From: Pseudomonas antarctica
GTDB lineage: Bacteria; Pseudomonadota; Gammaproteobacteria; Pseudomonadales; Pseudomonadaceae
Assembly: GCF_001647715.1 (NCBI RefSeq)
Contig: NZ_CP015600.1
Span: 6,200,001 to 6,264,000, forward strand
Length of the DNA: 64,000 bases
Direction: 5' to 3'
Shown: piece by piece, positions 1,949-52,522 of the stretch
Position numbering within the stretch: position 1 is the first letter of the stretch
Layout of the letters: each line of letters begins with the position of its first letter
Made by a program: the position numbers and the translations under genes
Notes under the pieces: model-generated
Told to the model about the DNA's origin: nothing
Databases searched by the model: none
Seen by the model: the letters and a program-made list of their open reading frames with translations, nothing else

Positions 1949-2087
1949 GAATGAATCTCAAAGGTAAATACGAAGTAACACATTGTTTAACTTTAAAGGC
2001 TCTGACTCAAGGCGTTCGTGATCTGGCGCTTGGAATATCACTAACGGATTGATGGCACTCACCGCATTAAGGCGTAACAAAAAGCCA

Positions 2088-2115
2088 TTGTTTTGCCAGT
2101 AATGGCGCCTATAAT
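2088..2115 (+). promoter_or_regulatory. Sigma-70 type promoter for the lipoprotein operon
   Basis: TTGTTT at 2088-2093 and a perfect TATAAT at 2110-2115 are separated by 16 bases and lie about 90 bases upstream of the COG3014 lipoprotein start. The spacing and the exact -10 make this the most likely promoter of the four-gene operon. Confidence 0.6.
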
Positions 2116-2206
2116 GCCGCGCCCTGTTATTTCTAAAGGGTATTTATTTCCTCGTTTTTATGAGGAATTTGCACATCTGCTTATCACTTTCAAGGAAGAA
2201 GTTTGC

Positions 2207-3601
2207 ATGGCATTTCGCGCCTTGACCCCGCTCACGCTTGCGGCGGTTACCTTGCTTTCCGGTTGTTCGATGTTTCGCAGCTACGACACTGAGCTGCAAG
2301 CCACTAACCAGCAGTTGGCCACCGGTAACGTCGATGGCGCCCTGACCCTGCTGGAAAAGAACAACACCGGCGAAGACAAGGACCTGCTCTACTTCTTCGA
2401 AAAGGGTGAGCTGTTGCGCGCCAAAGGTGACCTCACCGGCAGCCAGACCGCCTGGCGCAGTGCCGACCTGCAGGTCTACAAGTGGGAAGAGTCGGTCAAG
2501 TTCGACAGCGAAAAGTACCTCGCCCAGTTCGGCAGTTTCCTGGTCAACGACAAGGTGCGCCGCTACGAAGGCTACGACTACGAAAAGGTCATGCTGACCA
2601 CCCAAATGGCCCTGAACCTGCTGGCCGTGAATGACTTCGACGGCGCCCGCACCGAAATCAAGAAGACCCACGAGCGCGAAGCCGTTATCGCCGACCTGCG
2701 CGACAAGGAATACCTCAAGCGCGAAAACGAGGCCGAGCGCCAGGGCGTAACCACCCAGATCAAAGACCTGCGTGGCTACCCGGTTGAAGCACTGGATGCG
2801 CCGGATGTGGTCGGCCTGAAGAACAGCTACCAGAGTGCGTTCAGCCATTACCTGGCAGGCTTTGTCTACGAAGCCCTGGGAGAGAAAGACCTGGCCGCAC
2901 CGGGTTATCGCAAGGCAGCCGAGTTGCGCCCCAACACGCCGCTGCTGGAGCAAGCGCTGATGGACCTGGACAAATCCAGGGTCGGCGCCGACGAGACCGA
3001 CGTGCTGATCGTGGTGCAGAGTGGCCTGGCACCGGCGCGGGATTCGATCCGCCTACCGCTGCCGATCCCGATCGACGGCCACCTGGTCATCACCCCACTG
3101 TCATTCCCGGTGATCAAGGCAGACACCTCGACCGCGACCTTCGGCCAGATCGGCGTCGACGGCAAGCAGCAGAACCTCACCGCACTCAATAGCACCACCG
3201 CCATGTCCCGCCGCGCCCTGCGTGACGACATGCCTGGGATCATCCTGCGCACCACCGTGCGTGCAGTCAGCCGTGGCGTGACGCAAAACAACCTGAACAA
3301 GACCAACCCCATGGCAGGCCTGGTGCTGGGCATCGCCTCGGCGGTGACCGAAGGTGCTGACACCCGCACCTGGCGCACCCTGCCGGACATGACCCAAGTG
3401 ACGCGCCTGCGCCTCAAGCATGGCGAACACCAAGTCAGCCTGCCCAACGCCTTGGGCGGGACGCTGGTGACGGTCAAGGCCGACCAGCGCTATCAAGTGA
3501 TCACTCTGCGTGTGGTCGGCAACCAGGTTTTCGCCGGTGGCCTTGCCGCGCATGTGGTGCCAGGCACTTCCGCTCAGGCCATCGCCCTCAAACAACCTTA
3601 A
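2207..3601 (+). CDS. COG3014 family lipoprotein
   Basis: A 464-residue protein starting at an ATG preceded by AAGGAAGAA. An upstream in-frame start at 2093 is rejected because it would bury the signal peptide. The N-terminus is a lipoprotein signal ending in the lipobox L-L-S-G-C. The next 250 residues are helical and resemble tetratricopeptide-type repeats (A-x-G-N-V-D-G-A-L-T-L-L-E and similar). The C-terminal half is beta-rich. It matches the uncharacterised COG3014 proteins that sit upstream of ycfL and lpoB homologues. It is first in an operon of four envelope proteins, so a role near the peptidoglycan synthases is plausible but unproven. Confidence 0.8.
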   Translation: MAFRALTPLTLAAVTLLSGCSMFRSYDTELQATNQQLATGNVDGALTLLEKNNTGEDKDLLYFFEKGELLRAKGDLTGSQTAWRSADLQVYKWEESVKFDSEKYLAQFGSFLVNDKVRRYEGYDYEKVMLTTQMALNLLAVNDFDGARTEIKKTHEREAVIADLRDKEYLKRENEAERQGVTTQIKDLRGYPVEALDAPDVVGLKNSYQSAFSHYLAGFVYEALGEKDLAAPGYRKAAELRPNTPLLEQALMDLDKSRVGADETDVLIVVQSGLAPARDSIRLPLPIPIDGHLVITPLSFPVIKADTSTATFGQIGVDGKQQNLTALNSTTAMSRRALRDDMPGIILRTTVRAVSRGVTQNNLNKTNPMAGLVLGIASAVTEGADTRTWRTLPDMTQVTRLRLKHGEHQVSLPNALGGTLVTVKADQRYQVITLRVVGNQVFAGGLAAHVVPGTSAQAIALKQP

Positions 3602-3611
3602 GGAGCACGTT

Positions 3612-3983
3612 ATGCGTCATTTCATCCTCGGCGCCCTCGCGCTGATCCTGCTCGCCGGCTGCGCCACCCCACCGCCACCGGAACCCGGCAGCGCCGCCAG
3701 CAAAATCGTGGTGATGGGTAAATTCAAAGGCATCGCCGTCGGTGCCATTCGCGTTGCCCGCGAAAACGGCTTCCTCACGGCCAAAGTGCAGCTGAGCAAT
3801 ATCACCAGCAGCAACCAGATGATGTATTACCGCTTCGCCTGGCTGGGCGCCGACGGTTTCCCTGTGGGCGATGAAGAAACCTGGAAAGTGCTGAACCTGT
3901 ACGCCAACCAGGCGACCTTCCTGCCCGCCATTGCCAATTTGCCCCAGGCCGCGGACTTCCGTCTTGAAGTGAAGACGCCTTGA
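3612..3983 (+). CDS. ycfL: YcfL family lipoprotein (DUF1425)
   Basis: A 123-residue protein with a lipobox (L-L-A-G-C at residues 13-17), a Pro-rich tether and a small beta domain containing the family pattern around M-M-Y-Y-R-F-A-W-L-G-A-D-G-F, typical of YcfL/DUF1425. The start ATG follows AGGAG, ten bases after the stop of the previous gene. In Escherichia coli ycfL is immediately upstream of lpoB, as here, which supports the assignment. Its function is unknown; outer-membrane lipoprotein location is inferred from the lipobox. Confidence 0.85.
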   Translation: MRHFILGALALILLAGCATPPPPEPGSAASKIVVMGKFKGIAVGAIRVARENGFLTAKVQLSNITSSNQMMYYRFAWLGADGFPVGDEETWKVLNLYANQATFLPAIANLPQAADFRLEVKTP

Positions 3984-4033
3984 GTCGCGCCCCTGCTCTT
4001 CAACTAAAAAGCCTGTTTCAGAGAGATTTCCCC

Positions 4034-4621
4034 ATGTTCGTACGCTTCTCGTTCCTCGCCGTGGTCGCCCTGCTGGCCAGCGGTTGCTCCAACACCTCGC
4101 CGGTACTCGGCGGCAAGAACATCAGCTACGGCGACACCAAGGCCGTGGAGTTGGTGACCAACGAGTTCGGTTCCACCGACCTGCAGATGATCGCTGAAAG
4201 CATGACCCGCTCTCTGGCGCAGTCCGGCATTCTGCAAGGCCGTCCGGTGGTGCAGGTGTATGACGTGAAGAACAAGACCAGCGAGTACATCGATACCCGC
4301 GAGATCACCACGTCGATCAAGACCCAGTTGATGAAAACCGGCACCGCGCGCTTCGCCAGCGACAACACTGAAATGCAAAGCCAGGTCGACCAGCTCAAGC
4401 TGCAGAACCAGAGCGGCCTGTACAAAAAATCCACGGTGAGCAAGACCGGCAACATGGTTGCCGCCAAGTACCGCCTGGAAGGCTCCATCAGCTCCATCGT
4501 CAAGCGCAGCTCGGACTACAAGGACGTGTTCTACAAATTCAGCCTGCAGCTGATCGACGTCGAGAGCGGCCTGGCCGAATGGATGGACGAGAAAGAAATC
4601 CGCAAAACCACGGAGCGCTAA
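4034..4621 (+). CDS. lpoB: Penicillin-binding protein activator LpoB
   Basis: A 195-residue lipoprotein (lipobox L-A-S-G-C) with the LpoB/CsgG-like fold. The I-S-Y-G-D-x-K-A-V-E-L-V-T-N-E-F-G-S-T-D-L-Q start of the domain and the long helix with R-S-L-A-Q-S-G-I-L resemble E. coli LpoB. In E. coli LpoB spans the periplasm from the outer membrane to stimulate PBP1b. Pseudomonas is reported to use a different activator, LpoP, so the partner here is uncertain. The start at 4034 is chosen because it gives the signal peptide directly. It ends four bases before the next gene. Confidence 0.85.
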   Translation: MFVRFSFLAVVALLASGCSNTSPVLGGKNISYGDTKAVELVTNEFGSTDLQMIAESMTRSLAQSGILQGRPVVQVYDVKNKTSEYIDTREITTSIKTQLMKTGTARFASDNTEMQSQVDQLKLQNQSGLYKKSTVSKTGNMVAAKYRLEGSISSIVKRSSDYKDVFYKFSLQLIDVESGLAEWMDEKEIRKTTER

Positions 4622-4624
4622 GCA

Positions 4625-5365
4625 ATGCGTGCATGGATCGGCATGATCGGCCTGCTGTGCGCCTTTGGCGCCTCGGCCGCCCCTAAGATCGCGGTAACCG
4701 ACCTGGCCTACGAGGCGCGGGTCGAGGAGTACATCCACGCGGTGTCGGCCAGCAATAACTTCCAGGCCAGCGCGTATCAGGCCAGCGGTGCGTCGAACTA
4801 CAGTGAGTACGAGAGCCGTACCAGCTACATCGAACAGACCGAGCTGCGTAAATTCAGCGGTGACATCAAGGGCGAAATCCTCAAGTCGCACCAGTTCCAA
4901 CTGGTGCAGGGAACGCCCTACACCGCCGACGCCAAGGGCGACGTCTATGACGTGATCAAGCGCATCAAGGCCGGTAACTTCAAGGGTGCTGACTACGTGC
5001 TGTTCGGCACACTGTCGGACATCGACTTCACCCAGGACATCAATGCCCTGGACCACACCAACAGCTATTCGGCGGTACTGGGCCTGACGTTGGTGGCCGA
5101 CTTCAGCCTGATCAACACCCGCACCTTCGAGATCACCTCGGCATTTACCGCCATGGGTGAAGGCCAGGACACCAAGCTGGTGAACAGCCGCGATGTGCGC
5201 GTCAGCCTGAACCGGCCACGTGTCGTGAAGGAAGTCTCGAAAGCCTTGGGTGAGGATGTAGCCAGGCAGTTGGCGGAACAGTTGGGCGGCGGGTATCAAG
5301 ACCCGGGCAAGCCTGCGTTGCGCAATAACCTGCCAAGGGATGAAGCGCCAAAGATTCTGCGCTGA
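4625..5365 (+). CDS. Periplasmic LpoB/CsgG-like protein
   Basis: A 246-residue protein with a cleavable Sec signal (A-S-A-A at about 17-20) and no lipobox. The mature part begins K-I-A-V-T-D-L-A-Y, the first strand pattern of the CsgG/LpoB fold, and contains G-A-D-Y-V-L-F-G-T-L-S-D-I and a C-terminal helix (V-S-K-A-L-G-E-D-V-A-R-Q-L-A-E-Q-L). It follows lpoB by three bases and closes the operon. It may work with the LpoB homologue as a soluble partner; this is inferred from context and fold only. Confidence 0.7.
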   Translation: MRAWIGMIGLLCAFGASAAPKIAVTDLAYEARVEEYIHAVSASNNFQASAYQASGASNYSEYESRTSYIEQTELRKFSGDIKGEILKSHQFQLVQGTPYTADAKGDVYDVIKRIKAGNFKGADYVLFGTLSDIDFTQDINALDHTNSYSAVLGLTLVADFSLINTRTFEITSAFTAMGEGQDTKLVNSRDVRVSLNRPRVVKEVSKALGEDVARQLAEQLGGGYQDPGKPALRNNLPRDEAPKILR

Positions 5366-5396
5366 GCCCCCACTTCAAAGCCAGCACATAACCAAT

Positions 5397-5484
5397 GTGG
5401 GAGCGGGCTTGCTCGCGAATACAGTGAATCAGCCACTCTTTCTGTTGACTGACATAGCGCATTCGCGAGCAAGCCCGCTCCCAC
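5397..5484. repeat. REPIN (inverted REP pair)
   Basis: A left arm GTGGGAGCGGGCTTGCTCGC and its inverted copy ending at 5484 enclose about 40 bases. This is the common Pseudomonas REP doublet. It lies between convergent genes, after the lpoB operon and before the LysE gene's 3' end. Confidence 0.9.
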
Positions 5485-5506
5485 AGTTTTAATCTCGTTT
5501 GTTCAG

Positions 5507-6139
5507 TTACGCCGTTGCGCGATGCAAGCTGGCCAAGAACCCCGCAGCCCCCACGAATAACCCGGCAAACGTGCGGTTCATGCGCTTTTGCTGCTTGGGC
5601 GTGCGCAACACGCGCAAGACTTTCGACGCCAACCCCGTATAACCCGCCATCACAATCATATCGACGCCGATCATGGTCGCGCCCAGGATCAGGTACTGGA
5701 TCAGCAAAGGCGCCTGCGGGTTCACGAACTGCGGCAGCACCGCCAGCATGAACACCAGAGCCTTGGGATTGCTGGCGTTGACCAGGAACCCACGGAACAT
5801 CATCGCCATCGGCTTACCGATCGGGCGTATCGCCGCGTCCTCGCTCATGTCCATGGGCAGGGCACGCCATTGCTTGATGGCCAGGTACACCAGGTACGCC
5901 ACACCAAACCATTTGATCGCATAGAACGCAGTGGAAGACGCCGCAAGAATGGCACCCAGCCCGCCCGCCACCACGGCAATCTGCATCGCCAGGCCCAGTT
6001 GCAGGCCAATGGCATTCCAGTAACCGCGCAGGAAACCGTATTGCAAGCCGCTGGACATCGACGCGATTGCGCCGGCACCGGGGGAAAGGGAGATGATCCA
6101 ACTGGCCAGGAAAAAGGCCAGCCATGTGTCGAGTGCCAT
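5507..6139 (-). CDS. LysE/RhtB family amino acid exporter
   Basis: A 210-residue inner membrane protein with about six helices. It carries the family signature near the N-terminus (S-P-G-A-G-A-I-A-S-M-S-S-G-L-Q-Y-G) and the hydrophobic pattern V-A-Y-L-V-Y-L-A-I-K-Q-W. Members export amino acids such as lysine, homoserine or threonine; the substrate here cannot be told. It stands alone, with its 3' end next to a REPIN. Confidence 0.85.
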   Translation of the reverse strand: MALDTWLAFFLASWIISLSPGAGAIASMSSGLQYGFLRGYWNAIGLQLGLAMQIAVVAGGLGAILAASSTAFYAIKWFGVAYLVYLAIKQWRALPMDMSEDAAIRPIGKPMAMMFRGFLVNASNPKALVFMLAVLPQFVNPQAPLLIQYLILGATMIGVDMIVMAGYTGLASKVLRVLRTPKQQKRMNRTFAGLFVGAAGFLASLHRATA

Positions 6140-6227
6140 TACACACCTCAGAAGGGAGTTTGCCGTCAGGCCTTAAGCTAACTCCGCCGACCGAAGGCTG
6201 GCTATAGATTTTTAAAAGATCTGAGCG

Positions 6228-6800
6228 CTAGCGGTCGCCCGGGAACACGTGAGTACCCGGCCAACGCCGCACGGAGCGCTGGAAGAACAAACTGTTAGGC
6301 ACTTGTACCATCGCGCTGTCGGTACCGGCATCTTCCACTTCGATCAACGTGGTGTAGAGCAGGTTGATCGCCACTACCCGACCCTTCACGCCCGGCTTAT
6401 CGACGGTGTCCACCAACTCGACGATATCACCGAGGCGGAACGGCCCGACGGTGAAAATCAAGATAGCGCACAGCAGGTTGGACAGTACCGACCACATGGC
6501 GAAGAACGCCACAGCGGCAACCGCGACAAACCCTGACAGTGCCGTCCACAACACCGTGGCGGACACGCCCAGGCGGCCCAGCACGAAAATCAACGCACTG
6601 CCCATGATCAGCCAGCGCAGGCCGCCGCGCAGAGGCATCAGCAGTTGCGGTGGGAACGGGTAGCGCTCACCCAGACGGGTGAGACCTTTGGCAACAAAAC
6701 GCTGGGTGAGATAACCAGCCAGCAGAATCAGCAGGATTTGCACGCCGATCCAGGCCGGCTCCACCCATTGCGTCGGTAACGGCAGTTGCAGCGCCTCCAT
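6228..6800 (-). CDS. MscS family small-conductance mechanosensitive channel
   Basis: A 190-residue short MscS homologue: three membrane helices, then the pore-lining segment (G-F-V-A-V-A-A-V-A-F-F-A-M-W-S-V-L-S-N) and the beta domain (F-R-L-G-D-I-V-E-L-V-D). The C-terminal alpha/beta domain of full-length MscS is largely missing, which is common for this short class. Its ATG shares one base with the TGA of the ABC-F gene upstream (TGATG), so the two are translationally coupled. Confidence 0.85.
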   Translation of the reverse strand: MEALQLPLPTQWVEPAWIGVQILLILLAGYLTQRFVAKGLTRLGERYPFPPQLLMPLRGGLRWLIMGSALIFVLGRLGVSATVLWTALSGFVAVAAVAFFAMWSVLSNLLCAILIFTVGPFRLGDIVELVDTVDKPGVKGRVVAINLLYTTLIEVEDAGTDSAMVQVPNSLFFQRSVRRWPGTHVFPGDR

Positions 6801-8710
6801 CAGGACAGCGCCTCCAGCTCCGCTTGCAAGCTTTCCAGCAGCTCGAGGGCTTCCATCCAGGTTTCCTCCAACTGCCCTTCACGCACCTTGAGCTTGGCCT
6901 GTTCGGCCAGCAGGTCGCGCAGCTCGTCCTTGCGCGCCGCCTCGTAGACGGCGCTGTCGCCCAGGCTGGTTTCGATCTTGGCCAGGCGCTCATGCACCTT
7001 GCCCAGCTCGGCTTCCAGCTTGTCGGCTTCACGCTTGTGCGGCGCCAACTGCTGACGCAGTGCGGCGGCGGCCTGGCGCTGGGCTTTTTTGTCGGTTTTG
7101 TCCGGGTTGACCGGCGTGTTGCTGACCGGCGAGTTGCGCAGACGGTAATCCGTCAGCCAGCGTGCGTAATCATCCAGGTCACCGTCGAACTCTTCGACTT
7201 TGCCGTCAGCCACCAGCAGGAAGTTGTCGGTGGTGCTCTTGAGCAAGTGGCGATCGTGAGACACCACCAGTACCGCGCCACTGAACTCCTGCAGGGCCAT
7301 GGTCAACGCCAGGCGCATTTCCAGGTCCAGGTGGTTGGTGGGTTCGTCGAGCAACAGCAGGTTCGGTCGGTCCCAGGCGATCAATGCCAGGGCCAGACGC
7401 GCCTTTTCGCCACCGGAGAAATTCAATACCGGCTCATCGATGCGCGCGCCACGGAAGTCGAAGCCACCGAGGAAGTCGCGCAGGGTTTGCTCACGCTCGG
7501 TCGGCGCCAGACGCTGCAGGTGCAGCAACGGGCTGGCCTTGGAATCAAGGGAGTCCAGTTGATGCTGAGCAAAATAGCCCACCACCAGGTTCTCGCCACG
7601 GGTCAGGCGGCCGGCCAGCGGTTGCAGTTCACCCGACAGGTTCTTGATCAGTGTCGACTTGCCGGCGCCATTAGGGCCGAGCAAACCGATACGTGCGCCC
7701 GGCGTGAGCTGCAGCTTGACCTTCTCCAGAATGGTTTTGTCGCCATAACCCAGGCGCGCATCCGAAAGGTCCAGCAACGGGCTGGAGATCTTCACCGACT
7801 CACGAAATACGAAGTCGAACGGCGAATCGACGTGGGCCGCCGACAGTTCCTCCATTCGCTCCAGGGCCTTGATCCGGCTCTGGGCCTGACGGGCCTTGGT
7901 GGCCTGGGCCTTGAACCGGGCGATGTAGCTTTCCATGTGCGCGCGTTGCGCCTGCTGCTTCTCGAAAGCCTGCTGCTGCTGGGCCAGACGCTCGGCACGC
8001 GCGCGTTCGAACGCGGTGTAGCCGCCACGGTAGAGGGTGATTTTCTTCTGTTCGACGTGGGCGATGTTGTCGACCACGGCATCGAGGAAATCCCGGTCGT
8101 GGGAAATCAGCAGCAAAGTACCTGGGTAGCTCTTGAGGAAATCTTCCAGCCACAGGATCGCATCGAGGTCCAAGTGGTTGGTCGGTTCGTCGAGCAGTAA
8201 CAAGTCCGACGGGCACATCAGCGCCTGAGCCAGGTTCAGGCGCATGCGCCAACCACCGGAGAAGTCGGCGACCGGGCGGTCCATCTGCTCATTGGTAAAG
8301 CCAAGACCGGCAAGCATCTTGCGGGCGCGGGCGTCGGCGGTATAGCCATCGGCACTGTCGAGTTCCGAGTGCAGGCGGGCCTGAGCCGCGCCGTCCTGGG
8401 TTTTCTCGGCCTCGGCCAGGTCGTGTTGCACCTGGCGCAGGCGCAGGTCGCCATCGAGCACGTAGTCGATCGCAATGCGGTCCAGGGTGTCGATCTCCTG
8501 GCGCATATGGGCGATGCGCCAGTCGGCCGGCAGCAAGCAGTCCCCGGAATCCGGGGTCAGCTCACCCAGCAACAGGGCGAACAACGTGGATTTGCCGGCA
8601 CCGTTGGCACCGATCAGGCCGGCTTTGTGACCGGCGTGCAGGGTCAGCTCGGCGTCTTCGAGAAGACGTTGCGGGCCACGCTGTAATGTTAGGCTTTGAA
8701 GTCGGATCAT
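6800..8710 (-). CDS. yheS: ABC-F ATPase, YheS type
   Basis: A 636-residue soluble protein with two ABC domains. Walker A motifs are G-A-N-G-A-G-K-S-T and G-P-N-G-A-G-K-S-T, signature motifs are F-S-G-G-W-R-M-R and F-S-G-G-E-K-A-R, and both Walker B motifs read L-L-L-D-E-P-T-N-H-L-D. Between the domains is the charged interdomain linker with A-K-Q-A-Q-S-R-I-K-like sequence. The C-terminus is a coiled coil rich in K, E and L. Length and sequence are close to E. coli YheS (637 residues). ABC-F proteins act on ribosomes rather than in transport. Confidence 0.92.
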   Translation of the reverse strand: MIRLQSLTLQRGPQRLLEDAELTLHAGHKAGLIGANGAGKSTLFALLLGELTPDSGDCLLPADWRIAHMRQEIDTLDRIAIDYVLDGDLRLRQVQHDLAEAEKTQDGAAQARLHSELDSADGYTADARARKMLAGLGFTNEQMDRPVADFSGGWRMRLNLAQALMCPSDLLLLDEPTNHLDLDAILWLEDFLKSYPGTLLLISHDRDFLDAVVDNIAHVEQKKITLYRGGYTAFERARAERLAQQQQAFEKQQAQRAHMESYIARFKAQATKARQAQSRIKALERMEELSAAHVDSPFDFVFRESVKISSPLLDLSDARLGYGDKTILEKVKLQLTPGARIGLLGPNGAGKSTLIKNLSGELQPLAGRLTRGENLVVGYFAQHQLDSLDSKASPLLHLQRLAPTEREQTLRDFLGGFDFRGARIDEPVLNFSGGEKARLALALIAWDRPNLLLLDEPTNHLDLEMRLALTMALQEFSGAVLVVSHDRHLLKSTTDNFLLVADGKVEEFDGDLDDYARWLTDYRLRNSPVSNTPVNPDKTDKKAQRQAAAALRQQLAPHKREADKLEAELGKVHERLAKIETSLGDSAVYEAARKDELRDLLAEQAKLKVREGQLEETWMEALELLESLQAELEALS

Positions 8711-8760
8711 AATGGCGGCGGAGTCTACCAGCTTCGTTGCTCGCTGGCTTGGGTGTGAAT

Positions 8761-9222
8761 ATGTGCGCTGACCTGTGGAGCTTTGCCCTCTCGACTTACG
8801 CCCGGCCGGGCGTTGAAGCCGCTTGCCTGCGCTTGCAGGATCAAGGCGCGGATGTGTGCCTGTTGCTCTGCGCCGCCTGGCTGGAGCGGCGCGGCGTGGC
8901 GCTTGAGCCCGAGCGTATTCAGGCGCTGCAGCAGGTTGCCCTGCCGTGGCAGAAAAATGTGGTCGAACCGTTGCGACAGATGCGCGCGCAATGGCGAGCC
9001 ATGGCGCAACAGGATTTACCTTTGGCGGCGTTACGCGAGCGGGTCAAAGCCCTGGAGCTGGAAGCCGAACGGGAGTTGTTGGCACGCCTGGAAGTGTTGA
9101 CGCAGGCATGGCCGACTGAAGAAGGGGATCAACTGGGGTGGCTTGAAGGTCTGGCGGCCGGAACCGCCAACCTTGACCGCGACGCGCTGCAGCAACTGCG
9201 CGTCGCGGCCACCGGCACTTAG
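8761..9222 (+). CDS. TIGR02444 family protein
   Basis: A 153-residue helical protein starting M-C-A-D-L-W-S-F-A-L with Y-A-R-P-G-V-E-A-A-C-L, the hallmark of the uncharacterised TIGR02444 family found mainly in gammaproteobacteria. An in-frame start at 8737 is possible, but homologues begin near the W-S-F motif. It is divergent from the ABC-F gene and its 3' end overlaps algP by four bases in convergent orientation. No function is known. Confidence 0.7.
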   Translation: MCADLWSFALSTYARPGVEAACLRLQDQGADVCLLLCAAWLERRGVALEPERIQALQQVALPWQKNVVEPLRQMRAQWRAMAQQDLPLAALRERVKALELEAERELLARLEVLTQAWPTEEGDQLGWLEGLAAGTANLDRDALQQLRVAATGT

Positions 9223-10385
9223 GAAGCGCTGGTTGGGGTGGTGCTTGGCGCTACCGGTGCAGAAGTGCTGCTGGCCGATGCCGTTGGAGCGGCGGACGCT
9301 GCCGGCGTAGCAGACGAAGCTGCCGGGGTAGCAGGCTTGGCCAGTGCTGGTTTCGCAGCAGCAGGTTTGGCGGCTGGCTTGGCGGCTGGTTTTGCAGCCG
9401 TGGTTTTAGCTACTGGCTTGGCAGCTGGTTTCGCAGCAGCCGGTTTGGCAGCAGGCTTGGCGGCTGGTTTTGCAGCAGCGGGTTTAGCAGCTGGCTTGGC
9501 GGCTGGTTTCGCAGCAGTGGTTTTAGCTACTGGCTTGGCAGCTGGTTTCGCAGCAGCGGTTTTAGCAGCTGGTTTGGCGGCTGGTTTCGCAGCAGCAGTT
9601 TTAGCAGTTGGCTTGGCGGCTGGTTTTGCAGCAGCGGTTTTAGCAGCTGGCTTGGCGGCTGGTTTCGCAGCAGCGGTTTTAGCCGCTGGCTTGGCGGCTG
9701 GTTTTGCAGCAGCGGTTTTAGCCGCTGGCTTGGCGGCCGGTTTTGCAGCAGCGGTTTTAGCCGCTGGCTTGGCGGCCGGTTTCGCAGCGGCGGTTTTAGC
9801 CGCTGGCTTGGCGGCTGGTTTTGCAGCAGCGGTTTTAGCCGCTGGCTTGGCGGCTGGTTTCGCAGCAGCGGTTTTAGCCGCTGGCTTGGCGGCTGGTTTC
9901 GCAGCAGCGGTTTTAGCCGCTGGCTTGGCCGCTGGCTTGGCCGCTGTCTTAGCCGAAGCCTTCGACGCAACAGCTTTTGCGGGTGTACGAGCGCCCAGCA
10001 CTTTAGCCACAGCTTCTTTCACACGACCAACGCCCTGGGCCAGTTTCAGGCTTTCCTGAGCATCGCGTTTGAGTTGAGAAATGTAGGTGCGGGTTTCAGC
10101 TTGGCGATCCTTGAGGGCGTCCAGCAAGTCCTCAAGTTCTTTAACAGCGTCTTTGGCTTTGGCTTGTGCCTTGGCCTTGCCGGCAGTAGCGGCGTCTTGC
10201 AGTTTGGTGCGGGACTTGTGCAGCTTCTCTTGCGCTTTACCGCGTTGTTTTTCCAGTTTGGCGAGCAGTTTTTCTGCATCAGCCAAGGCTTGGGAACACG
10301 CGCTTTCCAGATGTTCGAGCAGGCTGCCCGAAAGTTGTTGGAGTAAGTGCAACGGGGTATTTACAGGCTTCTGTTTGGCCGACAT
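9219..10385 (-). CDS. algP: Histone H1-like alginate regulatory protein AlgP
   Basis: A 388-residue very basic protein. Residues 1-110 form a coiled-coil domain (L-L-A-K-L-E-K-Q-R-G-K-A-Q-E-K-L), and most of the remainder is Lys/Ala/Pro repeats of the K-T-A-A-A-K-P-A-A-K-P-A-A type, ending in a Ser/Ala/Thr-rich tail. This is AlgP (AlgR3), the eukaryotic histone H1-like nucleoid protein first found through alginate regulation in P. aeruginosa. The position beside the FKBP isomerase and algQ is as expected. AGGAGG lies just upstream of the ATG. Confidence 0.92.
   Translation of the reverse strand: MSAKQKPVNTPLHLLQQLSGSLLEHLESACSQALADAEKLLAKLEKQRGKAQEKLHKSRTKLQDAATAGKAKAQAKAKDAVKELEDLLDALKDRQAETRTYISQLKRDAQESLKLAQGVGRVKEAVAKVLGARTPAKAVASKASAKTAAKPAAKPAAKTAAAKPAAKPAAKTAAAKPAAKPAAKTAAAKPAAKPAAKTAAAKPAAKPAAKTAAAKPAAKPAAKTAAAKPAAKPAAKTAAAKPAAKPAAKTAAAKPAAKPTAKTAAAKPAAKPAAKTAAAKPAAKPVAKTTAAKPAAKPAAKPAAAKPAAKPAAKPAAAKPAAKPVAKTTAAKPAAKPAAKPAAAKPALAKPATPAASSATPAASAAPTASASSTSAPVAPSTTPTSAS
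9345..9950. repeat. 39-bp tandem repeat array inside algP
   Basis: About fifteen copies of a 39-base unit encode the 13-residue Lys/Pro/Ala repeat. Copies near 9640-9900 are almost identical, differing mainly at a GGC/GGT or TTC/TTT position. Those near 9360-9640 carry substitutions giving T-T-A-A or V-A-K variants. The period is a multiple of three, so copy number can change without breaking the frame. Confidence 0.9.
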
Positions 10386-10577
10386 GGTTTACCTCCTGGC
10401 TGACGTGGGTGCGGCTCATACTAGCCCTCTGCTCTTACCGCCGCTAGGGCATGTTGACAGTATCGTTTGCCTTGCGTTGCACGGTGAGAAAATTCTTATC
10501 GATATAACAAAAAACCACGGCACTTTTTACGCACTCAGGCTGGCATAATCCGTCGCACTTTCGGCGGGAGACTCCCC

Positions 10578-11255
10578 ATGTCGCGTTACCTTTTTTTAGT
10601 GCTTGGCTTGGCGATTGGCGCGGCCAATGCGGGTGAGCAATCGCCGTCAGGCAGCACTGCCCAAGACCCGCACGATCTCGCGTACAGCTTGGGCGCAAGC
10701 CTCGGCGAGCGCTTGCGCCAGGAAGTCCCCGACCTGCAGATCCAAGCACTGGTTGACGGCCTCAAGCAAGCCTACCAAGGCAAACCACTGGCGCTGGACG
10801 ATGCACGTATCGAACAGATCCTCGCCCAACACGAAGCACAGAGTGCGGCCGACGCCGAGGTTCCAAAGAGCGAAAAAGCGCTCGCTGCCGAACAGCAATT
10901 TTTAACCCAGGAAAAAACGGCAAGCGGCGTGCGTGAATTGTCGGATGGCATCCTGCTCACCGAGTTGAAGCCGGGCACTGGCAGCAAGCCGTTGGCCAGT
11001 GATGAGGTGCAGGTGAAATACACCGGAAAGTTGCCCGACGGGACGGTCTTCGATCAGAGCACACAGCCCCAATGGTTTCGTCTGGACAGCGTGATCAGCG
11101 GCTGGAGCAAAGCACTCCAACAGATGCCGACAGGCGCAAAATGGCGCCTGGTGATTCCATCGGCCCAGGCCTATGGCGCCGACGGTGCCGGCGAGTTGAT
11201 ACCGCCGTATACGCCGCTGGTATTTGAGATCGAGTTGCTCGGTACTCGCCACTGA
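10578..11255 (+). CDS. FKBP-type peptidyl-prolyl cis-trans isomerase
   Basis: A 225-residue periplasmic protein. A signal peptide (cleavage about A-N-A-G at 17-20) is followed by an N-terminal helical dimerisation region (Y-S-L-G-A-S-L-G-E-R-L) like Mip/FkpA/FklB and a C-terminal FKBP domain (V-Q-V-K-Y-T-G-K-L-P-D-G-T-V-F-D-Q-S). It catalyses prolyl isomerisation and may chaperone envelope proteins. It lies between algP and algQ as in P. aeruginosa. Confidence 0.88.
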   Translation: MSRYLFLVLGLAIGAANAGEQSPSGSTAQDPHDLAYSLGASLGERLRQEVPDLQIQALVDGLKQAYQGKPLALDDARIEQILAQHEAQSAADAEVPKSEKALAAEQQFLTQEKTASGVRELSDGILLTELKPGTGSKPLASDEVQVKYTGKLPDGTVFDQSTQPQWFRLDSVISGWSKALQQMPTGAKWRLVIPSAQAYGADGAGELIPPYTPLVFEIELLGTRH

Positions 11256-11261
11256 CCCAAT

Positions 11262-11292
11262 AAAAAACGGTGCGCCATGCGCACCGTTTTTT
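11262..11292. terminator. Bidirectional intrinsic terminator
   Basis: A perfect 14-bp inverted repeat (AAAAAACGGTGCGC and its complement) around a three-base centre, with A and T runs on either side. It serves the FKBP gene on the plus strand and algQ on the minus strand. Confidence 0.92.
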
Positions 11293-11307
11293 ATGTATCA
11301 CCCAGGA

Positions 11308-11766
11308 TCAAACCTGCGCGACAGACTCTTCCTTATGGGCGTTGTGCAACACTTCGATCAAGCAGTCTTCCAGCTCGAAACGCTCGTGGAGCAGTCCACC
11401 CAACTCTTTAAATTTTTCAGCAACACACTCACCGGCATCACACAGGTCGTTAAAGGCCAGCAGCTTTTCGGTGATGACATCGATGCGCGGGTAAATAGTC
11501 TCGGCCAGTTCCAGGCCACGCTCATCGTTAAACGCTTTCGCCTCGCCGGTCAGTTGCTCGTAAATCTCGAAATGGCCGGTAGACACATAGTCCACCAATA
11601 CACCGCAGAAATCTTGCAGCGACTCGCGATTCTCAGCCAATGCTTCGGGCTTGGCGCCAAGAGCATCAAAGGCCCGAACCAGTTCGTGACGTGCCTTCAA
11701 CCAGCTGTCGATCAGCTTGTGCACCCCACCCCAGCGTTCCTGAGCATTCTGACAACTTTCCAGCAT
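11308..11766 (-). CDS. algQ: Anti-sigma-70 factor AlgQ (Rsd family)
   Basis: A 152-residue all-helical protein with the Rsd/AlgQ pattern, including [18 protein letters not shown] at 12-29 and [17 protein letters not shown]. Rsd-type proteins bind region 4 of the housekeeping sigma factor; AlgQ also influences alginate, siderophore and virulence gene expression in P. aeruginosa. Its 3' end meets the FKBP gene's terminator. Confidence 0.92.
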
Positions 11767-11977
11767 GGTGATCTCTCTTCCCTATAGGGGGCGCTGCCGC
11801 TCTGTGCCCGCGCAACACTTCAAGGATAAAAGCGGCAGCCGGACAAGGCCGCATCTGACAAACGGTTTCAGTAATGCGTGCGGGCCAGATTATGCCCGCA
11901 TGACTATGGCTTCAAGGTACGCAGGAGAGAAAGTTCATACAAGTGTTTAATCCCATCCTACAAACTGCCATTGGCCT

Positions 11978-12499
11978 TCAATACCTCGCAAGGTCCAAAC
12001 GACTGCCCAGTAGCAGCCGTGAAAACTGCATGATGCCCATGGCCAGCATCGCCACGAAGAACAACAAGCTCCACTCCGGCAGGCTCAGGTCGAACAGCGT
12101 CCAGTTGAGCTCCACACAATCGACGGTGCCTCTGACCGTCAATTGCAGTGCTTGCCAAAGCGACAGGTTCTCAATCATGTATTGCAGACTGGGCCAGCAA
12201 TCGCTGGCCTGCTCCAGTGCGGCATTTTGTAGCAGTACCTGGCGCACAGCAGTAATAGCGCCAAGCAACGCACAACCCATGCTGGCCAACCCGTAAAGGT
12301 AAGCCGCAGAGCGTCTTGGGCCGTGAATCACGGCAACCAGATTGATCAGGGTAAAGGCGGCCAGAAAGATGCGTTGCACCTGGCAAAGGAAGCAAGGGCG
12401 CAAGAGCGCGCCGAACTCGAGATAAAAAGACGCACCCAACGTCAGCGCACCCGCCATGAACGCCAGGAGAAAGAAGGAGCGTGAAGGGGCCAAAGACAT
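11978..12499 (-). CDS. dsbB: Disulfide bond formation protein DsbB (DsbH)
   Basis: A 173-residue inner membrane protein with four helices. The first periplasmic loop has C-F-L-C-Q and the second has the other redox pair (D-C-W-P and T-V-D-C). It re-oxidises DsbA and passes electrons to quinone. The start at 12499 is preferred because it begins directly with the short cytoplasmic segment before helix 1; an upstream in-frame ATG at 12559 would add a non-conserved 20-residue extension. This is the DsbB paralogue usually found between algQ and hemY. Confidence 0.88.
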   Translation of the reverse strand: MSLAPSRSFFLLAFMAGALTLGASFYLEFGALLRPCFLCQVQRIFLAAFTLINLVAVIHGPRRSAAYLYGLASMGCALLGAITAVRQVLLQNAALEQASDCWPSLQYMIENLSLWQALQLTVRGTVDCVELNWTLFDLSLPEWSLLFFVAMLAMGIMQFSRLLLGSRLDLARY

Positions 12500-48494: not shown

Positions 48495-48763
48495 CCGACC
48501 CTCCTGACATTCCATGATTAGGGGTTGGACCGAGCTTGCCGGGTCTTTGCTGCAATGAACAGCAATCAATTTGATAAGCCCATCCCTGTGCGCATGAAGA
48601 AACTGCCAAATAAAAGCCTAATTAAAACAGAAACATATCATAAAGGTTTAACCCGAGATCACGACCAAAGAAAAGCCTTACGACTCATTGAATAAAAGCC
48701 CTACGTTCATTTAGGACAAGATCAAAACACAAATTATATCCACGCACTAATATCGATTTCAGT

Positions 48764-50155
48764 ATGAAACCATCTTCAAAAGGCTATACACCTAACGAAT
48801 ACAAATACCCAAGGAAGCGCAATGAAAAACATAACCATATAATAATTATCGGTTTCGGAAGCGTCGCACAAGGCCTGCTCCCACTATTATCAAGGCATTA
48901 CAATGGAGTGAACGTGACAATTTTTGAGAAACACCTAAACGAGAGCCTTATCGAAATTACCACCGAATTTTCAGCCACCCTGGAAGAAAAAGTCATAACC
49001 GCTGAAAACTTCAAACCTATACTCTCACCGTACTTAAACGGAAATACTTTTTTAGTGAACCTCGCAGTATCTGTCTCAAGCCTGGAGCTTTTAGAGCTGG
49101 CTCAAAAGTATGACTCACTTTATCTAGACACCTGTATAGAGCCGTGGGCCTACAAAGACGAAAAATACCAGACGCTAACCACAAACTATCAGCTTCGCGA
49201 GGTAATGAAAACGTATCAACAGAAAACGACTGGCCCAACCGCTGTTGTCGCCCATGGCGCAAATCCTGGCTTCATCTCAATTTTATTAAAGAAAGCTTTA
49301 GTAGAAATGGCCGCAGCAAACAACATAGTAGCAGAACCGAAAAACCAGATTGAATGGGCAGCGCTTGCCAACATCCTTGAAATACAAGTTATACAAATCT
49401 CCGAGCATGACTCGCAAGTCAGTGCATCAGCCCGCGCCCCCCTAAACTTCGTCTCCACATGGTCTGTGGACGGTCTTATTACCGAATGCCTGCAAGCAGC
49501 AGAATTGGGCTGGGGCACACACGAAACAGAAATTCCTTACGGCGCAAGAAAAAATGGATATGCACTAGAAATGCTAGAGCAAGGGTGTAACGTTAGAGTT
49601 AAAAGCTGGTCACCTAACTATTTGGAATTTTCTGCCTATTTACTAACCCACAACGAAGCACTGTCAATTGCTGAATATTTGACTTTAGGCGACCCCGAGA
49701 ATCCTACCTACCGCCCAACTGTTTACTATGCGTATGAACCTTGTGATCAGACACTCGATTCAATGCAACTTTTGGGTCAGAGTGAGCAATCAGAAAAAAT
49801 CAAAAAAACGATTTTGAAAGACGAAATTATTTCGGGAATAGATGAGCTTGGCGTTTTCCTAATCAGCAAAAAGTTCCGCGCCTTCTGGTTAGGGTCAAAT
49901 CTATCAATTGGTAAAGCCAGGAAAATGGCCAACTACAACAGTGCGACAAGCTTACAAGTTGCCTCCAGCATAATTGGCGGCATGAAATGGGCAGAATACT
50001 TTCCAAACGCTGGCGTCATAGAATCCGAAAACTTGGATTGGCGTTACGTATACGATATCACTGTTAACTATTGGGAACCCATCGTCAGTCAACAGACAGA
50101 CTGGAAACCATCGGATGTCGACCACACGCTGTCTTTCAGTAACTTTTTAGTATGA
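48764..50155 (+). CDS. Homospermidine synthase-type enzyme (saccharopine dehydrogenase-like)
   Basis: A 463-residue protein. The NAD-binding Rossmann start is I-I-I-I-G-F-G-S-V-A-Q-G at 26-37. The body carries the conserved blocks of bacterial homospermidine synthase: D-T-C-I-E-P-W (E126), H-G-A-N-P-G (N167), E214, S-T-W-S-V-D-G with W233 and E241, A-E-L-G-W-G-T-H-E, and I-D-E-L-G-V (D360). These match, as I recall, the NAD/putrescine-site residues mapped in the Blastochloris viridis enzyme, which joins two putrescines, or spermidine plus putrescine, to homospermidine. The ATG has no clear Shine-Dalgarno sequence, but no other in-frame start fits. It is first of four tightly spaced genes. Confidence 0.85.
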   Translation: MKPSSKGYTPNEYKYPRKRNEKHNHIIIIGFGSVAQGLLPLLSRHYNGVNVTIFEKHLNESLIEITTEFSATLEEKVITAENFKPILSPYLNGNTFLVNLAVSVSSLELLELAQKYDSLYLDTCIEPWAYKDEKYQTLTTNYQLREVMKTYQQKTTGPTAVVAHGANPGFISILLKKALVEMAAANNIVAEPKNQIEWAALANILEIQVIQISEHDSQVSASARAPLNFVSTWSVDGLITECLQAAELGWGTHETEIPYGARKNGYALEMLEQGCNVRVKSWSPNYLEFSAYLLTHNEALSIAEYLTLGDPENPTYRPTVYYAYEPCDQTLDSMQLLGQSEQSEKIKKTILKDEIISGIDELGVFLISKKFRAFWLGSNLSIGKARKMANYNSATSLQVASSIIGGMKWAEYFPNAGVIESENLDWRYVYDITVNYWEPIVSQQTDWKPSDVDHTLSFSNFLV

Positions 50156-50197
50156 AGCCGTCTACCTGAAAAATAACTTTACCAAAAGGCCGCTATC

Positions 50198-50956
50198 ATG
50201 AATAACATGCAGAGCACCTCTAATACGCCGAAAAAATCAAGCAATGCGTCTTCAATTCTCAAGGATTTTTGCTTTCCTCCGGTAACGCTTAGCAAGGCAG
50301 AGAAGGCTACCTGGAAAGAAATTTTCTTCGACTCAATAATTACCGAATACGATGCAAGGAGGCTTTATTGGCATATCGCTGATCAGAATCCAGCTTGCAT
50401 CTCTGAATCGGCAAATATCTTAAAGCCTTGGCTTAGAGATGAAATCGATCACGCGTATGGCTTCTCTCTGATTTATTCAGCCTATACAGGAATTCCGCTT
50501 GACGTTGTAGCAATGGAAGTTGAAACAAGACAATCCGACTTCAACAGCCTAACCCCCTTTATGCAGGACCCACTTAAACTTCTCATCTTGCTTGCGTATG
50601 ACGAGATAATCACGACACACGTCTATCAGCGCAGCATAAAAAATTACGACACCTTTAGTTCCTCGCAATTGTCAGTCTGGATCAGAAAAATCAAAAGAGA
50701 TGAAGCTAAGCATTTTTTCTTTTTCATAGAACAAGCTAAACAGCTATTCCCGAATAGGCTTCAAGAAGCCCCGTCCATACTTAAAGAGCTTTTCACATTA
50801 GATTTTGAAAAAACAGAATATACAGGAACCTTCGTGTTAGACCACAACACGCTTGATTATCCAATCACTAAAAAAGAAATACAAGAATCAATAATCCCAA
50901 CCATCATCAAAAAATTGAGCCATGACACTCACACATCAAACGGAGCAAAAAAATGA
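50198..50956 (+). CDS. Ferritin-like di-iron protein A
   Basis: A 252-residue, mostly helical, soluble protein that I cannot place in a named family. Four helices supply a complete di-iron carboxylate ligand set: E50 (I-I-T-E-Y-D-A), E82/H85 (D-E-I-D-H), E136 (A-Y-D-E-I-I) and E169/H172 (D-E-A-K-H). The E-to-ExxH spacings are 32 and 33 residues, as in ferritin-like oxygenases and desaturases. A shared tail motif Y-x-x-T-F-x-L-D-H is at 208-216. The first 25 residues are polar and disordered. It starts 42 bases after the synthase gene with AAAGG before the ATG, and overlaps the next gene by ATGA. Confidence 0.78.
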   Translation: MNNMQSTSNTPKKSSNASSILKDFCFPPVTLSKAEKATWKEIFFDSIITEYDARRLYWHIADQNPACISESANILKPWLRDEIDHAYGFSLIYSAYTGIPLDVVAMEVETRQSDFNSLTPFMQDPLKLLILLAYDEIITTHVYQRSIKNYDTFSSSQLSVWIRKIKRDEAKHFFFFIEQAKQLFPNRLQEAPSILKELFTLDFEKTEYTGTFVLDHNTLDYPITKKEIQESIIPTIIKKLSHDTHTSNGAKK

Positions 50957-51666
50957 AACCTCCCTTCCTCAATAAGCGTCATTGGAGCTCTAGAGCGCTA
51001 TTCAAAGAAATCGCCAATAGCGATTGGGTCAATCCCGGTATTGACCCAAAATACGAGGATTTCTTTTTGGCCGACTTAGTCTCTGAGTACGACGCGATAA
51101 ACCTGTACCACTACCTTTATCCGAGACGCTCTGAGTTTTCCCCCTACTTCGTGCAATATTTAGACTTATGGTTTTTAGATGAAAAAAATCATGCCGACGG
51201 CTTTATAGAACTGAATCGTTTGATATTTAATACAGACGAAGAAACTCTCTTGGACAATTTAAAATCAAGAAACAGCGACTTTAAACCCTTTGAAGAAATT
51301 TTATCAAACGAATTAAGCTTACTTACTGTGTTTGCGTACGATGAATACATTTCAGTTAAAACATACAAGAAAGATACGTTCTATAATCAGTTTGGGCACT
51401 CGGGCTTCGACACATGGATTGGTAACTTAATCGCCGACGAAGCAACCCATTTCGCAAACGCTATAAAATTATTAAGAAACAACCACTCATCTTGTCTAGA
51501 GCTGATTGAAAAAACCTTAAACCGTATTATTCAACTTGAAAGTACCCCTTACAGAAATACCTTCTTGCTCGATCATGACGGGCCACACTTTCTTCTAGGC
51601 AATAGTGATTATGCGGACGCTGCCGCGAGTGAAATACTAGACATCCTAACTAGAGATAAAAAATGA
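50953..51666 (+). CDS. Ferritin-like di-iron protein B (paralogue of A)
   Basis: A 237-residue paralogue of the preceding protein. Ligands are E45 (V-S-E-Y-D-A), E77/H80 (D-E-K-N-H), E131 (A-Y-D-E-Y-I) and E163/H166 (D-E-A-T-H), with spacings of 32 and 32. The C-terminal Y-R-N-T-F-L-L-D-H at 200-208 corresponds to the same motif in protein A. Both copies keep a full metal site, so neither is a decayed partner. The two may form a heterodimer or catalyse consecutive oxidations; this is inferred. Start and stop overlap its neighbours by ATGA. Confidence 0.78.
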   Translation: MKPPFLNKRHWSSRALFKEIANSDWVNPGIDPKYEDFFLADLVSEYDAINLYHYLYPRRSEFSPYFVQYLDLWFLDEKNHADGFIELNRLIFNTDEETLLDNLKSRNSDFKPFEEILSNELSLLTVFAYDEYISVKTYKKDTFYNQFGHSGFDTWIGNLIADEATHFANAIKLLRNNHSSCLELIEKTLNRIIQLESTPYRNTFLLDHDGPHFLLGNSDYADAAASEILDILTRDKK

Positions 51667-52019
51667 AAAACAGTCACTATTTAATAGCCTCCATGGTGCT
51701 CATGGTGTTTGGCGAAATCCTAACTATCTATAGTGAAGTGTATGCCTCAAAACTTTCTGGACGAGTTATAGAAAACCCTGAACTTTTTATAAAACCTATT
51801 TTACTCATATGCATTGCCGGCATAAGCCTGATATTCGCTTATTGGTTAGGTTACCAAGGCACAGGGAATATATGGATCGTGACAGTGGCGTCACTCACAC
51901 TGCTGCTTATATTAGAACCCATCGTCATTTATGCGATGCTAAAGGAACTACCGGGGCGCGGGGCACTCATCGGATTCATTCTTGGAGCCGTAGGGCTACT
52001 GGCGACCCTGGTACTTTAA
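51663..52019 (+). CDS. Small four-helix membrane protein, SMR/DMT-like
   Basis: A 118-residue protein with four predicted membrane helices (about 6-26, 42-61, 70-90, 98-117). It has the size and layout of small multidrug resistance transporters, with acidic residues in helix 1 (E18, E25) and helix 3 (E85) and a glycine-rich last helix (G-A-L-I-G-F-I-L-G-A-V-G). It overlaps di-iron gene B by ATGA and is last in the unit. An exporter for the pathway product is the natural guess, but no family signature is decisive. Confidence 0.65.
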   Translation: MKNSHYLIASMVLMVFGEILTIYSEVYASKLSGRVIENPELFIKPILLICIAGISLIFAYWLGYQGTGNIWIVTVASLTLLLILEPIVIYAMLKELPGRGALIGFILGAVGLLATLVL

Positions 52020-52045
52020 AATATGCGACAGCGCTCTTGTTATCC

Positions 52046-52075
52046 AAAGGTTAGCCCACTTTGCGGGCTAACCTT
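52046..52075. terminator. Bidirectional terminator closing the AT-rich operon
   Basis: A 12-bp perfect stem (AAAGGTTAGCCC and complement) with a six-base loop and a following T run. It stands between the four-helix protein gene and the convergent cytochrome c5 gene. Confidence 0.88.
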
Positions 52076-52093
52076 TTGTAAATGCTTAACTTT

Positions 52094-52522
52094 TTACTTC
52101 AATCCAGACATCTTCTCGATTGCACCTTTAAGCTCGTCATCCGAGCAATCGGCGCATGTGCCTTTTGGCGGCATGGCGTTCAAACCGGTGATCGCCTTGG
52201 CCAGCAGGCCGTCGAGGCCGCCCTGGTGGTCGGCGCGGTCTTTCCAGGCTGCGGTGTCACCGATTTTCGGCGCGCCCAGCAACCCGGTGCCATGGCACGC
52301 ATTGCAATGCTTGGCGATCACGTCGTCCGGCGTTTTCGCACCGCCACCGCCGCCCACTGCCACCGCCACTTCCATCCCTTTGCATTCCTGGCCCTGAACA
52401 CAGACTTGGCCGACAGGCTCCAGGCGCTTGGCAATTTCATCATTGGTCGCAGCTTGAGCGCTGACAGCCCATAGGGCCAGTACGGTTGCTGGTGCAGCCA
52501 GCATTTTCATAATTAGGTTCAC
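52094..52522 (-). CDS. cycB: Cytochrome c5
   Basis: A 142-residue periplasmic protein: signal peptide to about residue 24, haem motif C-N-A-C-H in the middle, and axial Met in A-M-P-P-K-G. Extra cysteines occur before (C-V-Q-G-Q-E-C) and after (C-A-D-C) the haem. The GTG start has GAGGG nine bases upstream; an ATG twelve bases later is possible. Similar cytochromes carry electrons to oxidases or denitrification enzymes. Confidence 0.88.
   Translation of the reverse strand: MNLIMKMLAAPATVLALWAVSAQAATNDEIAKRLEPVGQVCVQGQECKGMEVAVAVGGGGGAKTPDDVIAKHCNACHGTGLLGAPKIGDTAAWKDRADHQGGLDGLLAKAITGLNAMPPKGTCADCSDDELKGAIEKMSGLK

Follow-up and report, generated by a model that had tools for sequence, protein, structure and literature searches.

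A stretch of 64,000 nucleotides from Pseudomonas antarctica (NZ_CP015600.1, positions 6,200,001 to 6,264,000; the whole stretch is called the window) contains at positions 48764-52019 four open reading frames (ORFs), all on the forward strand, which encode a homospermidine synthase (HSS), two ferritin-like di-iron proteins (FL1 and FL2) and a four-helix membrane protein (MP4). This gene order, HSS-FL1-FL2-MP4, is referred to as type A (Table 1). The HSS and FL1 genes are spaced by 42 bp and the pairs FL1/FL2 and FL2/MP4 overlap by 4 bp each (ATGA), suggesting that HSS is co-transcribed with the two di-iron genes and the membrane protein gene. An earlier description of the same DNA, made from its letters and here called the original prediction, had placed the four ORFs and described their tight packing correctly.

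Table 1. Coordinates of the operon genes and associated features in the window.
Feature	Position	Strand	Basis
HSS, 463 aa, divergent type A clade	48764-50155	+	PDB HSS match, Pfam domains, catalytic residues
FL1, ferritin-fold di-iron protein, 252 aa	50198-50956	+	E50, E82xxH85, E136, E169xxH172, C-terminal TFVLDH
FL2, second ferritin-like di-iron protein, 237 aa	50953-51666	+	E45, E77xxH80, E131, E163xxH166
MP4, four-helix SMR-like membrane protein, 118 aa	51663-52019	+	invariant E18, E25, E85
Terminator-like 12-bp hairpin with short T run	52046-52076	+	fold z -3.36
A+T-rich insertion bearing the operon	about 48564-52093		GC contrast and homology breaks against empty-site relatives

The best matches of the window HSS in the PDB are homospermidine synthases (2ph5, E 7e-95), in agreement with the enzyme type named in the original prediction, and the protein scores above the Pfam cut-offs for PF03435 and PF16653 (saccharopine dehydrogenase NADP and C-terminal domains); in NCBIfam, HSS and FL proteins reach no model's cut-off. 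With the bacterial enzymes (EC 2.5.1.45) from B. viridis (BvHSS) and P. aeruginosa (PaHSS) it shares the fold family, the NAD-binding and C-terminal domains and seven catalytic residues. The residues equivalent to PaHSS E113, N158, E206, W225, E233, H292 and E294 are all kept in the window HSS and in six other type A sequences (L022 and L040 were left out of the scoring); the list was taken from the available part of the published description (PMC8489232), N158 being our own mapping of BvHSS Asn162. In contrast to these enzymes, type A HSS differs at two residues of the substrate entrance, as in 7/7 scored sequences PaHSS Asp90 is replaced by S or T (S in the window) and Tyr119 is missing (gap). 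Both lie outside the published list of catalytic residues, hence they do not define bacterial HSS, and the Asp90 position is variable in other Pseudomonas HSS as well. Type A emerges as a single, separate deep clade on a long branch, with support 100/100, in a tree built from 62 HSS sequences.

A shorter arrangement, HSS-FL-EamA (type B), occurs in other Pseudomonas loci. Its HSS sequences are not monophyletic in the same tree because the Pseudomonas HSS of L058, in whose surroundings no FL-like ORF was seen by eye, pairs with the type B enzyme of the P. aeruginosa plasmid locus L024. The latter is identical to PDB 6y87 (PaHSS, Q6X2Y9) at 468/469 residues. According to the available part of its description, the structure of PaHSS was published, its homospermidine production was measured at about a third of that of the B. 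viridis enzyme, and its biological role was stated to be unexamined (PMC8489232). Judged from the conserved residues, type A HSS would, like the type B enzyme, make homospermidine.

FL1 and FL2 are distant paralogues (profile-profile E 1.2e-43, 23% identity) and fall in separate clades with support 100/99, which rules out a recent duplication. The di-iron ligands are invariant across 62 aligned FL sequences, those of FL2 were found in an alignment of 18 sequences, and the original prediction of two paralogous ferritin-like proteins with intact ligands is thus confirmed. The C-terminal TFxxDH motif is also invariant in the aligned FL sets, with DY in the distant protein of L037. The model of FL1 is a ferritin-type four-helix bundle carrying the pattern E, ExxH, E, ExxH, and among its best 50 fold neighbours listed desaturases, oxygenases and R2lox predominate and no rubrerythrin or ferritin chain occurs, a listing that does not exclude such chains. 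Predicted fold and ligands on four helices are shared with acyl-ACP desaturase, aldehyde deformylating oxygenase, the azoxy synthase VlmB and R2lox, whereas the FL proteins have the additional TFxxDH motif and no match above cut-off in curated sequence families. The gathering cut-off of rubrerythrin PF02915 (22.8 bits) was missed by FL1 (22.0) and FL2 (14.6), 3 of 20 diverse FL sequences matched PF02915 at E 0.01 or better, and FL2 matched NCBIfam AcsF weakly, with 15.2 bits against a cut-off of 192.5. In its model, FL1 resembles O2-activating di-iron oxygenases.

Four helices were predicted for MP4, also in hydropathy, as the original prediction had it. The MP4 model resembles the SMR exporters EmrE and Gdx-Clo with a near whole-chain match, at a structural score that is not decisive. 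E18 is invariant in 32/32 sequences and lies in the model near EmrE Glu14, which may be the corresponding membrane glutamate, an equivalence read from the ends of the aligned ranges only. MP4 is longer than these exporters, and neither Pfam nor a PDB profile search relates its sequence significantly to SMR proteins or to transporters in the PDB; transport is a prediction. Against EamA, the sequence profile gave a probability of 0.5%. EamA and SMR proteins belong to one superfamily, which includes the SMR spermidine exporter MdtIJ, and in type B an EamA transporter is present, identified by profile in L024 and by tblastn in the other type B loci. From the predicted fold, MP4, and EamA in type B, may export a cationic product.

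The operon is carried by an insertion. The GC fraction is 0.414 over 48564-52040 and 0.607 in the remaining window, and in all four empty-site relatives compared homology ends at 48562-48563 and restarts at 52094-52104. Of the two genes that flank the insertion, one is of the acetyl-CoA hydrolase type and the other of the cytochrome c5 type, as judged by eye; among 15 genomes of the same genus the hydrolase gene lies at most about 350 bp from the cytochrome gene in 11 and at about 1.4 kb in one, and in the other three it was not seen within the 1.5-kb flank of the cytochrome gene. The operon occupies this site in two further loci as well, L010 and the P. gessardii locus L009. By eye, there is no integrase or transposase among the ORFs of the insertion, and no convincing pair of transposon termini or target-site repeats was found at its ends. 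Between the window and the P. gessardii copy, dN/dS is about 0.06-0.10 for all four genes, figures that are approximate because dS exceeds 1. A promoter scan gave 5 sites compared with 6.8 in shuffled sequences, which is no excess. Of the strong terminator in the original prediction, there remains a hairpin that folds better than shuffled sequences but has a short T run and is not listed by a terminator consensus scan; since inspection by eye reveals a hairpin in the corresponding position in relatives that lack the island, this one may be a feature of the adjacent cytochrome gene.

The original prediction had named co-occurrence of the four genes in other genomes as a check, and the type A set was found at nine distinct loci (the window, L009, L010, L011, L012, L013, L014, L022 and the remnant L040; L009/G143 and L014/G033 are each counted once), which refutes that the genes never co-occur elsewhere. 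These loci occupy several chromosomal sites and a plasmid. A second site, beside a lysyl-tRNA synthetase-like gene, seems to be common to L011 and L040, and other loci lie elsewhere (flanks named by eye). Due to an internal deletion, L040 retains parts of HSS and FL2 together with MP4 and a rubredoxin gene, and L022, on a P. tremae plasmid, has an interrupted HSS reading frame; upstream of the L022 cluster lies a gene whose annotation is that of a polyamine ABC transporter substrate-binding protein (L022:3560-4660). A rubredoxin gene directly follows MP4 in six of the nine loci (L011-L014, L022 and L040) and is absent from the operon at the three loci of the window's site, the genome of the window having two other rubredoxin genes outside the operon. 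Pairwise, the protein distance matrices of the four operon proteins correlate at 0.86-0.97 (7 loci). Recurrence at other loci and purifying selection rule out a chance packing of ORFs.

Type B was found in three other Pseudomonas genomes (L039, L041, L042) and, with an added GNAT acetyltransferase gene and a Tn3-family transposase gene alongside, on P. aeruginosa plasmids (L024). This four-gene stretch is matched by 17 PLSDB records, of which 15 cover at least 80% and two are partial (45% and 2%); the 15 are records of P. aeruginosa plasmids, and in one of them, L023, the HSS coding sequence is spread over two frames. The type B cluster of P. aeruginosa is mobile and shares with the window the tandem of HSS, FL and a drug/metabolite-type exporter, but it has a single FL, EamA in place of an SMR-like protein and an extra acetyltransferase, and by tblastn no rubredoxin was found in L024, L039, L041 and L042. 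On the 16.5-kb plasmid NZ_CP039294.1 (L024), a transposon-like segment surrounds the near-identical copy of the crystallised P. aeruginosa HSS and contains genes for a site-specific integrase, a Gp37/Gp68-type protein, TcmP, FL, EamA, GNAT and a Tn3-family transposase. In addition to what had been predicted, the cluster is thus an insertion, rubredoxin often belongs to it, and a shorter version on P. aeruginosa plasmids contains, to one residue, the crystallised HSS.

In 398 Pseudomonas genomes, FL was detected in 7 at E 1e-8 (including the window's own and the L040 remnant) and HSS in 35 at E 1e-30, the two draws being taken as the same sample because their handles agree. All 7 FL genomes are among the HSS genomes (p 2.3e-8, assuming independence and ignoring kinship), and 28 have HSS without FL; HSS therefore does not need FL, yet FL goes with HSS in Pseudomonas. 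In a subset of the other Pseudomonas HSS loci without FL (L062, L066, L072 and L073), HSS is followed by members of a recurring gene family that, by eye, seems to encode a transporter. Across the phylum, FL was present in 3 of 398 genomes including the window's own; in G395, HSS lies on a different contig from FL, and G342 has no HSS, while its FL-like gene, located at the end of a contig, is by eye missing several ligand residues. When GTDB contigs were scanned for the FL1 family, 13 out of 37 candidates were confirmed, among them 6 Pseudomonas loci with HSS adjacent in all. In the Myxococcales locus L015, FL-FL-EamA lies at a contig end (L015:1-2232), and an upstream HSS cannot be judged because the contig starts inside the first FL. 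No HSS was present within the stretches examined of L017 and of the cyanobacterial L018-L021. In two of the latter, FL relatives directly follow glutathionylspermidine synthase-type genes (L018:8506-13785, with PF03738 and the pair duplicated; L019:1237-3515). The FL relative of G395 (L037:8491-10314) has a GNAT acetyltransferase gene in its vicinity, a feature shared with the type B plasmids. In L016, a metagenome-assembled genome of Pedobacter (1267-12324), an FL relative is found beside a non-ribosomal peptide synthetase gene and a distant saccharopine-dehydrogenase-type gene (below Pfam cut-offs); the locus further contains a gene for a 2OG-Fe(II) oxygenase and, by eye, one that is aminotransferase-like, the synthetase has by eye two modules and a reductase-like terminal domain, and L016 is possibly a natural-product cluster.

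The locus looks like a horizontally mobile operon. That its HSS is an ordinary core polyamine gene is ruled out, as relatives have nothing inserted at this site and just 35 of the 398 Pseudomonas genomes possess HSS. A phage origin was rejected, since FL1 is unmatched in phage records and 0 of 16 candidate stretches were confirmed in viral contigs; a PHROG search with the four proteins gave no match. An anti-phage defence system was likewise rejected, with PADLOC models matching none of 6 proteins at E 0.01. Searches of open-licence PMC papers, a body that does not include subscription papers or bioRxiv, gave no account of a comparable cluster, in line with the original statement that no characterised system with this set was known to its author, and the available part of the PaHSS structure literature does not mention the HSS-FL-EamA-GNAT cluster.

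We propose with moderate confidence a mobile polyamine-tailoring operon by which homospermidine is made, oxidised by the di-iron pair and exported. HSS would condense two putrescines, or putrescine and a close amine, to homospermidine, for which the literature basis is the type B enzyme; FL1 and FL2 would then activate O2 and oxidise the polyamine, receiving electrons from the rubredoxin of the operon or, in the host of the window, from one encoded elsewhere in its genome; the SMR-like MP4 (EamA in type B) would export the cationic product. As to the oxidation itself, monooxygenation, taking C- and N-hydroxylation together, is probable, and desaturation or cyclisation on the one hand and a role other than that of an oxygenase on the other are each given a small chance. 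The make-oxidise-export idea of the original prediction is plausible: it gains from the recurrence of the set, the catalytic residues of HSS, the oxygenase-like fold of FL1 and the SMR-like model of MP4, while the oxidation of homospermidine and an alkaloid product stay conjectural. The proposal also draws on the invariant di-iron ligands and the rubredoxin gene beside MP4 for the oxygenase role, on the EamA partner in type B for export, and on the confinement of FL to HSS genomes in Pseudomonas and the correlated distances of the four proteins, which point to co-evolution. The indecisive score of the MP4 model lowers confidence in it.

The FL proteins could instead be rubrerythrin-like scavengers that protect cells from peroxide or oxygen together with rubredoxin, HSS providing a protective polyamine and no new small molecule being made. 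Polyamines are stress protectants, FL1 comes close to the PF02915 cut-off and rubredoxin genes accompany most type A loci, all of which agree with scavenging. However, the rubrerythrin cut-off is unmet, the fold neighbours listed for FL1, which do not exclude other families, are mainly of other kinds, rubredoxin was not found by tblastn in type B, and scavenging would require neither a second, non-redundant paralogue nor a conserved membrane protein of exporter-like type, so that this explanation is rather unlikely. It is also unlikely that type A HSS now uses a different pair of amines or carries out a different Schiff-base reduction, with another triamine or an imino compound, and not homospermidine, being oxidised and exported. 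The long branch of the separate clade and the two changed entrance residues would fit such a shift, and the available part of one study reports side products of BvHSS from C3-C7 diamines (PMC4725965), but all seven catalytic residues are kept, the residue at Asp90 varies in other Pseudomonas HSS, the type B enzyme yields homospermidine and, in the available part of the structural study, the BvHSS variants D94N and D94K keep 61% and 52% activity (PMC8489232).

It is very unlikely that the operon supplies a precursor of a metallophore based on homospermidine, for which rhodopetrobactin and methylolanthanin are examples. According to the available part of its description, methylolanthanin holds homospermidine acetylated at the central amine, and its locus is said to encode a ferritin-like DUF4142 protein (PMC11317620). 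A GNAT acetyltransferase accompanies type B on the P. aeruginosa plasmids and the genome of the window has one IucA/IucC gene; this sole match, however, is at C1:4611891, a distance of 1.64 Mb, the cluster itself has no such gene, and the conserved four- or five-gene unit contains no ligase.

For the proposed sequence of homospermidine formation, oxidation and export, hypusine formation is the nearest mechanistic parallel, in which, as far as the available part of the source describes it, a NAD-dependent aminobutyl transfer is followed by a HEAT-fold di-iron hydroxylase (PMC9117371). In the operon, NAD-dependent 4-aminobutyl transfer would also precede the action of a di-iron enzyme. However, the hypusine pathway modifies the protein eIF5A and employs a HEAT-repeat hydroxylase, and because FL1 has a ferritin-type bundle in its model, the operon would at most work like that pathway and not be a member of it. 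Speculatively, and with low confidence, the operon might be a small-molecule counterpart of hypusine formation, in which aminobutyl transfer by HSS and hydroxylation by ferritin-fold di-iron proteins with a dedicated rubredoxin would lead to an exported hydroxylated homospermidine. If so, this would be a new class of secreted bacterial polyamine, whose genes move among Pseudomonas strains, also on plasmids of patient-derived P. aeruginosa. If the FL proteins oxidise polyamines, they would form a new enzyme family for this substrate class, for which deoxyhypusine hydroxylase is, to our knowledge, the only known di-iron counterpart. The genomic setting suggests a role for P. aeruginosa HSS, whose gene is the first in a mobile set that also encodes a di-iron enzyme and an exporter, and the role of this crystallised enzyme becomes directly testable with three or four genes.

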